This document shows, piece by piece, positions 2,016 to 26,984 of a stretch of DNA of 32,707 nucleotides. The DNA lies in contig JAGXLB010000010.1 of the NCBI GenBank assembly GCA_018334915.1, positions 1 through 32,707 of the forward strand, written 5' to 3'. Origin of the DNA: Candidatus Bipolaricaulota bacterium (GTDB taxonomy: Bacteria; Bipolaricaulota; Bipolaricaulia; M55B111). The translations under genes and the position numbers were made by a program. Below the pieces are notes generated by a model, which made no database searches, had not been told where the DNA came from, and was given only the letters and a program-made list of their open reading frames with translations. The stretch's first letter is position 1. The number at the start of each line of letters is the position of its first letter.

Positions 2016-2228
2016 AAAAGTACAATCTATTCAATTCTTTCAGCAACGGCGGATTTATTTGTCCGGCTCGACTAAGTGCTCTCCCCCCTTATCTAGCAAC
2101 TCTCTCAAGAAACCCAGCAGTAGACGAAATCCGGCAGCCAGATAAGGGGGGAGCACTTAGTAAAAAATGAAACCAACCTTCATAAACTAAGTTTCGCTTT
2201 CATACGATGGAGAAAGAATTGAGATCAA
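2012..2228 (+). repeat. Dispersed structured intergenic element, copy A (hairpin/core inverted relative to flanks)
   Basis: Arms ACTAAGTGCTCTCCCCCCTTATCT (2071-2094) and AGATAAGGGGGGAGCACTTAGT (2140-2161), with a 2-nt bulge. Core CAGCAGTAGACGAAATCCGGCAGCCAG (2115-2141). Flanks align with copies B and C. Confidence 0.75.
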
Positions 2229-10597: not shown

Positions 10598-10739
10598 GGT
10601 AAAACCTCTCCTTTTGTCTATTCTTTTGGGTTGAAAAATGTTATCACACGGTTAACTCTATTTCAACAAAGGAGATACAGCCACTGAAATCACTGACCTG
10701 GAGTTGGATAGCGAGGCCAACAAAATCGAACAAATTTGG

Positions 10740-10959
10740 TTCTTTCCCCATTGCCTGAAAGCGAGCCGTAATTCATAAACATTTAGGTCATTTTGACCTC
10801 CATATTGCCTTTTGCCACTTATATGGCAACTTATTTAACCTTAAAATCTTATCAGTAGAGGTAATCCGGCAGCCAGGTAAGCGACAGAGGGCAGATAAGG
10901 GCTAAAAGTTTAGTCCAGCGGCGGTGAAAGAACTGAGCCAAAGTTTGTAGCCCCGCTGG
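10740..10959 (-). repeat. Dispersed structured intergenic element, copy B
   Basis: Core CAGTAGAGGTAATCCGGCAGCCAGGTAAG (10853-10881, + strand). Arms CTTTTGCCACTTAT (10809-10822) and ATAAGGGCTAAAAG (10895-10908). Flanking blocks match A and C when read on the minus strand. Confidence 0.65.
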
Positions 10960-18523: not shown

Positions 18524-21500
18524 TTAGCTGACGTCTGCTTCGACCCAGACCAGCCTATGGTCGGAGGCGTTTTTGGTGACTTCCTGCAACCTGATTGCTC
18601 CCGGACCGAGTCCCGGCCAGAAGACGGCCGATCCTTTGATCTCTATATCCTTTGATGGAATAACGTAATCGACGCGTAAATCACCCAGAGTGTTAAATCG
18701 GGATGCCGCCGAGATATCTATTCCACCCTGACTCATCGGGAAAGTCGAAGTGTTCATTTCCGGGTTTTCTATTAGTAAATTCGCGGCCTTGAAATTGTCC
18801 GCACCTCCGGGTGATGCATTCATGTCACCCATCAGGACGAACTTGGCATCTTCGGGCAGACCGCCTTTCTCTCCGCTGTCATCGTAGATGTAATCCTTGC
18901 CTTCCGCGTAATCGGTAAGCAGCCTGACCTCGTCATGATTTCTGCGTCCATTTAGATTGGCTTCAGCATCAAAGACAGGCGGTGTCGGATGGGCCATCAG
19001 CACGTGTACGGTGGTACCGTCTATGTTGACCGGTACGTCCCAGTGGCTCTTGGATGAAAGTCTGAACTTTTTTGCTTCTTCTTTAGTCAGGAACTGGCCA
19101 CCGTGCTTGGAGCCAATTGGCATCTTATTGTCCGGCATGTCCTTCCAGAGGAACTTTCTAAATGTTCGGACTTGATCCCGTTTTATCGGGTACTTGCTGA
19201 GGAAAGCCATTGCGTACTGGCCTGGATACTCGCCCCAGCCGTAGCAATCGTTGCCGTATTCTCCGGATCCCGATTCGGTTACGATCTCGCCGTTGTTATC
19301 GATATCCATCCCACTGGGGATTCCCGTATTGGACTTAGCGACATAGATGTATTCGTAATCCAGACTTGGTAGATTTTCCCGCTGTGGTTCCTTCAGATAG
19401 TTTTCGACGAAAGCTTTGGCGTTTGAGGTCTCGGTCATCTTCCCTTCCTGGAAGTTATTGGCGATCTCGTTCAGAGCCAGGACGTCCGGGTTTGTCCGCT
19501 GTATGACCTCTGCAGCTGCTGCCGCCTGCTTGTCCCCTTTGTTCTGGACCTGTTCGGTAGTCAAGTTCTCAATGTTGAAGGTTGCAAACTTGACTTCCTT
19601 TTCAGTTTCTTCTCTTTTACGCTTCAGGTATGTTTCGTCTACGATATCACCGGATTTGTCTCTTACCTTGACCGCAACTTCCTCGCCGTCCACGTGAAAT
19701 TCCACGTAGTGGGCGACGGATTTAAATTCCTTAAGATAACTTCCCCAAGGAGCGTAGCTTTTCTCGTACTTGGGCGCCCCGGCACCGCCGGAAACTATCT
19801 CGTAGAACTCGTCCCCGTAGTCGTTGGAGGTCATGTTGGTGTATACCGGAGTTTCTTCGGTAATCAAAAGTCTCTGGTAATTGTGTTCGTCGCTTGCGAG
19901 GACAGCTGGCACGATGCCACTTTCACCAAACATTTCAAGTAACTCGTCCCTCATATCCAGCACGTACTGTTTCTGACCGCTGTACCACATCGAATCGTCA
20001 ATATGGGCGGAATTTGGGAAGGGGGGCTCGTGCATTATCGGGAACAGGTGATCGATCTCCGGATCTTCCTCTGCGTCCTCAACGACTTTTTCTATCCAGT
20101 CCATCTGGTTTTCCAGAATGAAGCCTTCGAGGTTGGAGCCGTACTTTTCCGGGTTAGTAGATATCCAGTAGTTGGAGTTGATCATCAGGATTCTTGAGTT
20201 GTCGTAATCGAAGTAATAGGCGTTTTCTCTGTAAGTCGGTGCATTCTCGCCTTCCGGCTCGGGGCTTACCATCGGATCGTCCGATTCCGGTTTAGTTATT
20301 GGATTGACGAACTCCTCGGCAAATACCGCTTCCGTGCTGTTCTCCCCTTCCTTGTCGAACTGTATTCCATAAGAACTACCGTCGTCGTATGCCGTGTAAA
20401 GGTGTTCATGGTTCCCTATACCCTCGTAGATAGGCATGTAGGCTCCTACCGCCTCTGCAGTATCTTTCCACGCTTTGAGCTGGTTCCTGAACCCTTCCAC
20501 GTTGTTGGAGTATCCTTTTACCAGGTCCCCTGCGAAGACGGTAAAGTCCATCCCCTGTTTATAGGCGCTTTCCAGCAGGGTGGTCATAGTGTCGTAGTTA
20601 GTGCTGTTGGCGTAGTTGACAAGCCCCTCGGTGTGTTCCGAACCCTCGTAACCTCCACGGCTGTCGCCGAGGAACGCGAACTTGAAGTGGTCGGTCTCCG
20701 ATTCGGTCTCGAAATGATATGACTTCGTGCTCATACTGTAGTCCGAATCCGGGTCCATAACAGATACTTCGTAGTCGATCTCGGTTCCCGGAGTGAGCCC
20801 GGTTACATTGACTTCGTGTCTTTCCCTGGGTTCGTCGGAGCTGAATGTCCGATCGTCTACTTTGACTTCCCCAATAGTTGGCTCGTTTGTCTCCCAGGAG
20901 ATAACGGCACTATTTTCCTTTACAAGGTCAACGAAAGGACCCTCTTCTACGTAGGGGACTACAGAATAGTTCATGCCGGTCTCTACCCTGAACCGTCCGT
21001 CGTAAGGAATTCCGTCTACTATCAGCCTGTAGTTAATAGTGGTGGTCTGGTCCAGGTCCAGCTGGTCCAGATCAAGTGAAACCTCGTGCTTCTCTCGCGG
21101 CGAATCGTAAGTCATATCCTTTGTTTCAGTGTAGTCCGGTAGCTGAGGTCCCGATTTCGGCTCATAGACCCCAAATTTTATCGTAAGCTCCTCGGCCTCT
21201 ATGGAAGTAAAGGTGAGATCTACGCCCGTTTCCGTTCCGGAGACTTCTACTTCGTCTTCGAGAAGAAAAACTCTGAATTTATCGATCTTTGGCATGTCCG
21301 GATAAGTCACTGATTCGCCTAACTTACCCCGTTTCGGGAAGCTAATCTGTAATCCTTCTATTTCCTGCGGACGGACCCTGAACTCTCCGTAGCTGAAGTC
21401 GACGGGCCCCCTGATTAATTTGACGCTTTGGCCTTCCTGGGTCGGGGTAGCGGCATCGCCCAGATGAGAACCTGATATCAGGAGCTGTCCGGTTTCGTCT

Positions 21501-22573
21501 TCTACGTACCAGTTACCCTCTCCCGCCGCTGGGTCTGCTACGGTTACGTCCTTTAGTTCGACCAATACACCCTCGTATTTTTCCTGCCTGACCTCGTTGG
21601 CCGGAAGTACTACCGGTTCCGGGATTTCTCCAACTCCGATTACTTCGACCTCACTCGGATCGTTGAACTCGGTCATCTGGTAGTACTCGTCGATCGGCCC
21701 TTTGACCCTGACGAGGTCTCCGGGAGCGACGTTCGGATTGGATCCGGTGTAGACCCAGATCCCGTTCCAGGCCCCTTTGCCATCCTGAAGGTAAAATCCG
21801 TTGTCATCCGTTACGACTGCCGTGCCAGTGGTTTCTACTATCTGTCCGGCGTAAGTTGATGCTCCCTCGTCAGTTGTACTCGACTGGACCTCTTGGACGC
21901 TTACCTCGGGAACTGCGGCTTCTTCACCTGACTTGGAGGTGCTTTTTGGTTGAATCCGGAACTCGCCGTAGCTAAAGGTAAGGGGTCCCGTTATCCTGCC
22001 GATTTCCGTTCCAGTCGAATCCGGTTGAAAATTTGAACCAGTATTCGAGCCATCAATGGCAACTTCTCCGCTGCCGTCATCTACCGACCATACTCCGTAC
22101 TCGTCCGGCGTGGAGGCGACCGTGACGTCTTCTACTTGAACCAGCATGCCCTCGTACTTTTCCTGCCCCACATCTCCGGTCTCAAGGACAAGCGGGTCCG
22201 GTATTTCCGATTCACCAATTTTGACAGCCGATTCGGGCTCTATCTCCGTCAGTTCGTGGAACTCAGTAACCGTACCGGTCACTTCCAGTTGGTCGCCGGG
22301 TGAGACCTCGGGAGTTTGGTCAACGTAAACGAAGATACCGCTCCACGGCTTGGTTCCGTCTTGCAGATAGTAGCCAGAACCGCCCACGGCTGTCACTACT
22401 CCCTTCGTAGTTACCGTCTCTTCAGCGTAATTGGACGCTCCGTCCGCGTTCCTTTCGGACTGTATTGTTTCAATGGTAACTTCTTCTGCCACCATTGTGG
22501 TTGTCGGGGCGGCTACAAGCAAGCCTACCAGCAGGACTGCGAGCAGGTAGATGGAAAACCTGCCTAAGTTCAT
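18524..22573 (-). CDS. Secreted multidomain protein: two OB-fold repeats, Fn3-like region, calcineurin-like phosphoesterase, C-terminal endonuclease/exonuclease/phosphatase domain
   Basis: Signal peptide. Tandem repeats, each with GFYLQDG-type and QEKYEG(M/V)LVxxxDVTVA motifs. LGDSRGG, FAGDLVKG, GIGNHEH, then FATFNIENL, LALNEIAN, LMGDMNASPGG and NASDHRLVW. Confidence 0.9.
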   Translation of the reverse strand: MNLGRFSIYLLAVLLVGLLVAAPTTTMVAEEVTIETIQSERNADGASNYAEETVTTKGVVTAVGGSGYYLQDGTKPWSGIFVYVDQTPEVSPGDQLEVTGTVTEFHELTEIEPESAVKIGESEIPDPLVLETGDVGQEKYEGMLVQVEDVTVASTPDEYGVWSVDDGSGEVAIDGSNTGSNFQPDSTGTEIGRITGPLTFSYGEFRIQPKSTSKSGEEAAVPEVSVQEVQSSTTDEGASTYAGQIVETTGTAVVTDDNGFYLQDGKGAWNGIWVYTGSNPNVAPGDLVRVKGPIDEYYQMTEFNDPSEVEVIGVGEIPEPVVLPANEVRQEKYEGVLVELKDVTVADPAAGEGNWYVEDETGQLLISGSHLGDAATPTQEGQSVKLIRGPVDFSYGEFRVRPQEIEGLQISFPKRGKLGESVTYPDMPKIDKFRVFLLEDEVEVSGTETGVDLTFTSIEAEELTIKFGVYEPKSGPQLPDYTETKDMTYDSPREKHEVSLDLDQLDLDQTTTINYRLIVDGIPYDGRFRVETGMNYSVVPYVEEGPFVDLVKENSAVISWETNEPTIGEVKVDDRTFSSDEPRERHEVNVTGLTPGTEIDYEVSVMDPDSDYSMSTKSYHFETESETDHFKFAFLGDSRGGYEGSEHTEGLVNYANSTNYDTMTTLLESAYKQGMDFTVFAGDLVKGYSNNVEGFRNQLKAWKDTAEAVGAYMPIYEGIGNHEHLYTAYDDGSSYGIQFDKEGENSTEAVFAEEFVNPITKPESDDPMVSPEPEGENAPTYRENAYYFDYDNSRILMINSNYWISTNPEKYGSNLEGFILENQMDWIEKVVEDAEEDPEIDHLFPIMHEPPFPNSAHIDDSMWYSGQKQYVLDMRDELLEMFGESGIVPAVLASDEHNYQRLLITEETPVYTNMTSNDYGDEFYEIVSGGAGAPKYEKSYAPWGSYLKEFKSVAHYVEFHVDGEEVAVKVRDKSGDIVDETYLKRKREETEKEVKFATFNIENLTTEQVQNKGDKQAAAAAEVIQRTNPDVLALNEIANNFQEGKMTETSNAKAFVENYLKEPQRENLPSLDYEYIYVAKSNTGIPSGMDIDNNGEIVTESGSGEYGNDCYGWGEYPGQYAMAFLSKYPIKRDQVRTFRKFLWKDMPDNKMPIGSKHGGQFLTKEEAKKFRLSSKSHWDVPVNIDGTTVHVLMAHPTPPVFDAEANLNGRRNHDEVRLLTDYAEGKDYIYDDSGEKGGLPEDAKFVLMGDMNASPGGADNFKAANLLIENPEMNTSTFPMSQGGIDISAASRFNTLGDLRVDYVIPSKDIEIKGSAVFWPGLGPGAIRLQEVTKNASDHRLVWVEADVS

Positions 22574-26766: not shown

Positions 26767-26984
26767 CGGTGAAATCAACTCAGTTTTTTTCACCGCCGTA
26801 TTTAATGGTCTAGCCCAGTTAAATACCCTCCCCCGCTTACCTGGCTACCGGGATTACCTCTACTGCTAAATTGTAAAGGTCAAATCAGTTTCCAGGTAAT
26901 CGGGGGAGGGTATGAAGGATAAAATGAAATCATCGTTCATGAAGTTTGGCTCGACTGGGGAAATGGAGATCAAATTGAGATCAA
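26767..26984 (+). repeat. Dispersed structured intergenic element, copy C
   Basis: Arms ATACCCTCCCCCGCTTACCTGG (26823-26844) and CCAGGTAATCGGGGGAGGGTAT (26892-26913), one mismatch in 22. Core on the minus strand AGCAGTAGAGGTAATCCCGGTAGCCAGGTAAG. Upstream hairpin CGGTGAAA...TTTCACCG. Confidence 0.75.

Follow-up and report, generated by a model that had tools for sequence, protein, structure and literature searches.

What is the structured, non-coding feature that lies between the convergent upp and nitroreductase genes of this Bipolaricaulota bacterium? The locus is part of a 32,707-nt stretch of DNA (the window), on which an earlier note had offered three interpretations: a structured RNA, an ERIC-like dispersed element, or a bidirectional terminator or processing element. 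It had named further genomic copies, significant covariation and a search of Rfam as checks.

Ends and extent of the element

We conclude, with a probability of about 0.9, that a non-autonomous DNA transposon (a MITE), 201-202 bp in length, occupies the spacer between upp (UPRTase, Pfam 6e-74) and the nitroreductase gene. Among the interpretations offered, the ERIC-like element comes closest. Transposition is concluded from three properties of the family taken together: terminal repeats, 5-bp target duplications and empty orthologous sites. The terminal inverted repeats are 15 nt long (CTCAGTTCTTTCACC...GGTGAAAGAACTGAG), and copies aligned in F orientation share a common outer body that ends in CTCAGTTCTTTCACC and its reverse complement. 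Most clear members measure 199-205 bp, with a mode at 201-202. An exact 5-bp duplication was found in 28 of 106 terminal-repeat pairs, compared with 0.66 expected for shuffled partners, and exact agreement over 4 bp (3 pairs) or 6 bp (1 pair) was at or near background. Searches for the terminal 15-mer found 92 sites in the organism's own genome when two mismatches were allowed, against 5 for the reversed control; in G001, a sister species, one mismatch was allowed and 103 sites were found, against 0 for the control. Insertion is polymorphic at copy A, which is present in the own genome (G000) and in G001; the site is empty in G003 and G004, where the spacers measure ~74 and 86 bp, orthologs being assigned by BLAST of the flanks in draft MAGs. 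The MITE is short (~200 bp), multi-copy and intergenic, possesses no coding capacity, and is nearly absent from ORFs (2 overlaps).

Much of the earlier description of the locus was confirmed: the position between the two convergent genes, the three copies in the window, and a hairpin with 22-nt arms and one mismatch (21 bp) around a 47-nt loop (26845-26891). A pattern for the core of this hairpin matched the window twice, with 0 matches expected from 100 shuffles. The ~220-nt element placed at 26767-26984 is a real copy of the family, with its true ends further inward and ATCAA on both sides (Table 1). The second hairpin claimed to its left (CGGTGAAA...TTTCACCG) straddles the insertion junction, combining host flank with the left terminal repeat, and is no separate module. 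The conserved block to its right is there, and consists of the right terminal repeat and the target duplication. The terminator or processing option is not supported: the U-tract that an intrinsic terminator would have is absent on either side of the stem in the flanks read in the window and in relatives.

Table 1. Positions of the MITE copies and their parts in the window
Feature	Position	Strand	Basis or remark
Copy A, MITE flanked by yegS-like and metallophosphatase genes	2030..2223		present in G001 with inverted core; site empty in G003 and G004
Copy A core, with arms CTAAGTGCTCTCCCCCCTTATCT / AGATAAGGGGGGAGCACTTAG around it	2088..2146	+	nhmmer 6.4e-08
Copy B, degenerate MITE	10735..10937		exact terminal repeat on the right; arms disrupted in part; flanks carry no matching duplication
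Copy B core	10818..10881	+	nhmmer 9.2e-19
Target-site duplication ATCAA, left	26774..26778	+	exact match to 26980-26984; family-wide 5-bp peak
Copy C, complete 201-bp MITE in the upp/nitroreductase spacer	26779..26979		ATCAA duplicated just outside the two terminal repeats
Left terminal inverted repeat CTCAGTTTTTTTCACC	26779..26794	+	consensus CTCAGTTCTTTCACC plus one extra T
Left hairpin arm	26823..26844	+	outer part variable yet complementary; inner CTTACCTGG constant
Conserved core (inner arms and 47-nt loop), F on minus strand	26836..26899	-	nhmmer 1.6e-19; inverted relative to the G001 orthologous copy
Right hairpin arm	26892..26913	+	pairs with left arm
Right terminal inverted repeat, degenerate, GGAGATCAAATTGAG	26965..26979	-	right end of copy C
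Target-site duplication ATCAA, right	26980..26984	+	exact match to 26774-26778; family-wide 5-bp peak

Other repeats were seen in the surroundings of the family. A different dispersed hairpin, CAATTACCCCGCCCCAAGGGACGGGGCTTG, often adjoins the MITE (L004, L062, L066, L077 and others), and a dispersed repeat, CCAGCCGATTCCTCCCCAGGGGGTGCCCTGGGGCTTCCTCGGCAAGTTTTGG, occurs in L016, L079 and L206. Elsewhere in the window, the gene at 18524-22573 on the minus strand encodes a protein of 1349 aa in which an endonuclease/exonuclease/phosphatase domain lies close to the C-terminal end; the gene also contains a 92-nt internal repeat (71% identity).

Distribution of the family and the search for a partner

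The MITE family is confined to one Bipolaricaulota genus, in which it reaches high copy number. BLASTN with copy C gave ~36 matches at E<0.01 in the own genome (a 2.9-Mb draft), at least 41 in G001, 13 in G003 and 3 in G002, and zero in the 36 other relatives searched. When a covariance model of the core was run under strict filters against 100 genomes of the class, it matched five genomes of the genus (G004 weakly) and nothing in the remaining 95. Altogether, 163 distinct cores were collected from four genomes of the genus. The core-bearing relatives are Bipolaricaulota MAGs whose origins are the Great Salt Lake and a location with the label Tobar.

At both curated and relaxed thresholds no Rfam family reached its cut-off, and the window gave two tRNAs only. 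MicroRNA-type matches on the hairpin were set aside: they score far below the cut-offs and are of the kind that a long stem usually elicits. At the sensitivity of the searches made, the family also had no counterpart in collections of known phages and plasmids or in IMG/VR. The note's picture of a dispersed, structured, intergenic and non-coding family with further genomic copies and no known Rfam family was thus borne out, and the MITE family appears undescribed as far as searched, that is, in Rfam, in the phage, plasmid and IMG/VR collections and in some full-text literature.

A transposase acting in trans would have moved the MITE by recognising its terminal repeats. Within the two transposase families searched in these draft genomes, no autonomous partner with CTCAGTTCTTTCACC ends was found, and a DDE_Tnp_1 profile gave no match in four genomes. 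Several candidates were rejected. Terminal repeats are absent from both of two IS1380-type remnants; a long terminal-repeat pair at L193 is actually two separate MITEs around a gene; a similar pair at L197 has neither duplication nor core; and L206 is an 896-bp MITE enlarged by nested repeats, with no obvious transposase. At L217, an IS1380-type transposase fragment (L217:1447-2067) adjoins an ORF of opposite direction (L217:2064-3224) that looks IS110-type-like by eye.

Core inversion and arm pairing

The core has repeatedly inverted without leaving its site. Measured against the outer body, it lies one way in 82 copies and the other way in 47 (47 of 129 resolved; 26 unresolved), and among 33 copies for which the terminal repeat was the sole search criterion, the two orientations number 27 and 6. 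A tree of the outer bodies requires 18 orientation changes, at least 7 of them forced by supported branches; the shuffled mean is 18.8, and core orientation clusters on the tree no more than by chance. Insertions shared with G001 in which only the core is inverted number four. Two of them are the upp locus, where core identity rises from 53% read directly to 85% after re-inversion, and copy A, where it rises from 41% to 73%. The two other pairs are L004/L181, less certain because the immediate flanks differ, and L077/L040, based on one flank and a best-fit comparison of the bodies. At several shared loci the outer body, and thus the whole element, is swapped as well, which could reflect inversion between the terminal repeats or separate insertion. 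Core orientation was the same as that of neighbouring genes in 20 cases and opposite in 23, and no gene-context or strand bias that would point to regulation was seen.

The arms of the hairpin fall into two parts: an inner 10-mer that is nearly invariant and an outer part that differs between copies. The outer 11 positions covary (z ~4 to 10), and pairing ends sharply beyond them (132 copies). In a 24-sequence alignment, the stem covariation score was 0.421 compared with 0.164 after shuffling, two-sided changes were present in 12 of 21 stem pairs, and no covarying pairs were detected among loop positions. Across copies, two-sided arm changes are common and far exceed the rare one-sided ones, while at loci shared by two species the counts are about equal (17 two-sided, 21 one-sided). 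In a stem that is not selected for RNA pairing, single transitions should leave G-U and A-C mispairs in equal numbers. Mispairs in the outer arm show no preference for G-U (76) over A-C (77); the inner-arm ratio is 45:30. By comparison, the acceptor stems of tRNAs at these loci gave 13 G-U and 3 A-C, in a pairing register that was picked by best fit and mildly favours G-U. Taken alone, the balanced count is compatible with RNA, since transcription of the element from both strands would lead to the same balance.

By usual practice the stem covariation would read as RNA, and three results argue otherwise: 1) the balance of mispairs; 2) the pattern of two-sided changes; and 3) the free orientation of the core. 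Significant covariation is thus present and yet not discriminating here, since template switching in DNA also yields paired, compensatory changes in hairpins (PMC8794818). Template switching during replication, or some other exchange between the inverted repeats, would invert the core and pair the arm changes. It explains both observations because it equalises arms and inverts spacers, and at short inverted repeats it has been reported to homogenise arms and invert spacers (PMC8604942). We regard it as the probable cause of inversion and arm pairing, and it fits the inversions and the equalised arms better than a selected RNA does. A 47-nt spacer is unusual for this process; in the yeast inversions the spacers were of only a few bases (PMC8604942).

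Selection for RNA pairing would account for the same arm changes if the core were a structured RNA (riboswitch-like, a small RNA or an mRNA-stabilising hairpin) spread by the MITE. Such a role draws on the strong covariation, on the conserved loop and on the precedent of Correia and ERIC MITEs, whose transcripts affect mRNA fate (PMC10969869, PMC2229807). We consider it improbable all the same, given that the unit transposes, that G-U is no more frequent than A-C, unlike in tRNA stems, that the core inverts freely relative to element and adjacent genes, that Rfam families all score below cut-off, and that the loop holds no covarying pairs. The structured RNA offered as one option in the note is not supported on these grounds. 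Even less probable is a programmed invertible switch (inverton), in which a site-specific recombinase would act on the arms. A recombinase site is expected to hold an internal dyad, and the arms lack one; their outer part varies among copies, the core has no orientation bias to genes, and the whole-element swaps at several shared loci are explained by a general inverted-repeat mechanism. These points outweigh what an inverton would otherwise account for, namely recurrent inversion with both orientations common, a nearly invariant inner-arm 10-mer and the inversion under stress on record for a Correia MITE (PMC10969869).

Core conservation and known relatives

The core is better conserved than the rest of the element. 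In elements chosen by terminal repeat and not by core, pairwise identity was 86% in the core versus 62% and 66% in the flanks, and at 15 shared loci core identity was 0.85 versus 0.75 (p=0.004), indicating some additional constraint on the core. Template switching does not explain the conservation of the loop itself.

The same hairpin core also sits in an unrelated repeat element with different ends (E2, GGGCCGAGAAATTTCC.../...GGAAATTTCTCGGCCC; the MITE described here is E1). E2 was seen at L010, L101, L100, L128 and L198, and at L206:1727-1940 with no recognised core; its ends enclose the core in some copies and other interiors elsewhere. A third and less defined context, E3, has flanks such as TTTTGTTCGGTTCGAGTGA and CTCGAACCGAACAAAAAGG (L057:1058-1097, L042, L048, L082, L130). 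Conversely, in a 162-bp element at L184:1061-1222 the terminal repeats of E1, with a perfect duplication of 5 bp, enclose a different interior that lacks the core, so movement does not strictly depend on the core.

The occurrence of one hairpin in E1, E2 and the less defined E3, whose outer sequences differ, together with E2 ends that also enclose other interiors, might suggest that the ~90-nt hairpin is itself mobile and inserts into other elements. This we hold to be a slim prospect: the hairpin was not clearly seen standing alone with a target duplication of its own, orthologous copies show inversion in place and not new insertion, and the sharing is explicable by module exchange or nested insertion. 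Somewhat less doubtful, though still unlikely, is that the 90-nt hairpin is a functional DNA-level module, not inert filler, which several unrelated miniature elements of one genus have adopted and in which a specific process conserves and turns the core. More generally, several mobile elements may carry the core as a DNA-level site for protein binding or structure formation, a tentative proposal to which we give somewhat less than even odds; its DNA-level function is the weakest part of the explanation.

Among known systems, the Correia elements of Neisseria (NEMIS/CREE) resemble the new MITE in being short, non-coding MITEs with terminal inverted repeats, a stem-loop and many intergenic copies, and inversion has been reported for them (PMC10969869). 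They differ in having TA-type ends instead of 5-bp duplications and a probably unrelated sequence, whereas the new MITE has a hairpin nested inside it, and the core of this hairpin inverts independently of the element body. ERIC/IRU elements are likewise dispersed, intergenic palindromic MITEs with tens to hundreds of copies (PMC10969869, PMC2229807). ERIC is 127 bp long, with another host and probably another sequence. We know of no separately inverting conserved loop in ERIC/IRU. YPAL/RU-2 of Yersinia (168 bp) shares internal inverted repeats (PMC2229807); its duplications vary from 3 to 26 bp and its repeats are internal, in contrast to the terminal repeats and strict 5-bp duplications found here. 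Spacer inversion by template switching in yeast coding regions, and small inversions in plastids, show the same homogenised arms and inverted spacer (PMC8604942), whereas here a transposon family displays many parallel events on a spacer longer than the few bases of the yeast cases.

This family adds a transposon, undescribed as far as searched, to a little-studied candidate phylum, and its many parallel inversions of one 47-nt spacer form a series supplied by nature. It also carries a warning: strong compensatory covariation is usually taken as the clearest sign of a functional RNA, yet a DNA replication process can produce it. Comparing G-U with A-C mispairs, together with loop orientation, is a cheap test that RNA-discovery pipelines could use. 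What keeps the loop conserved in otherwise unrelated elements can be tested directly.
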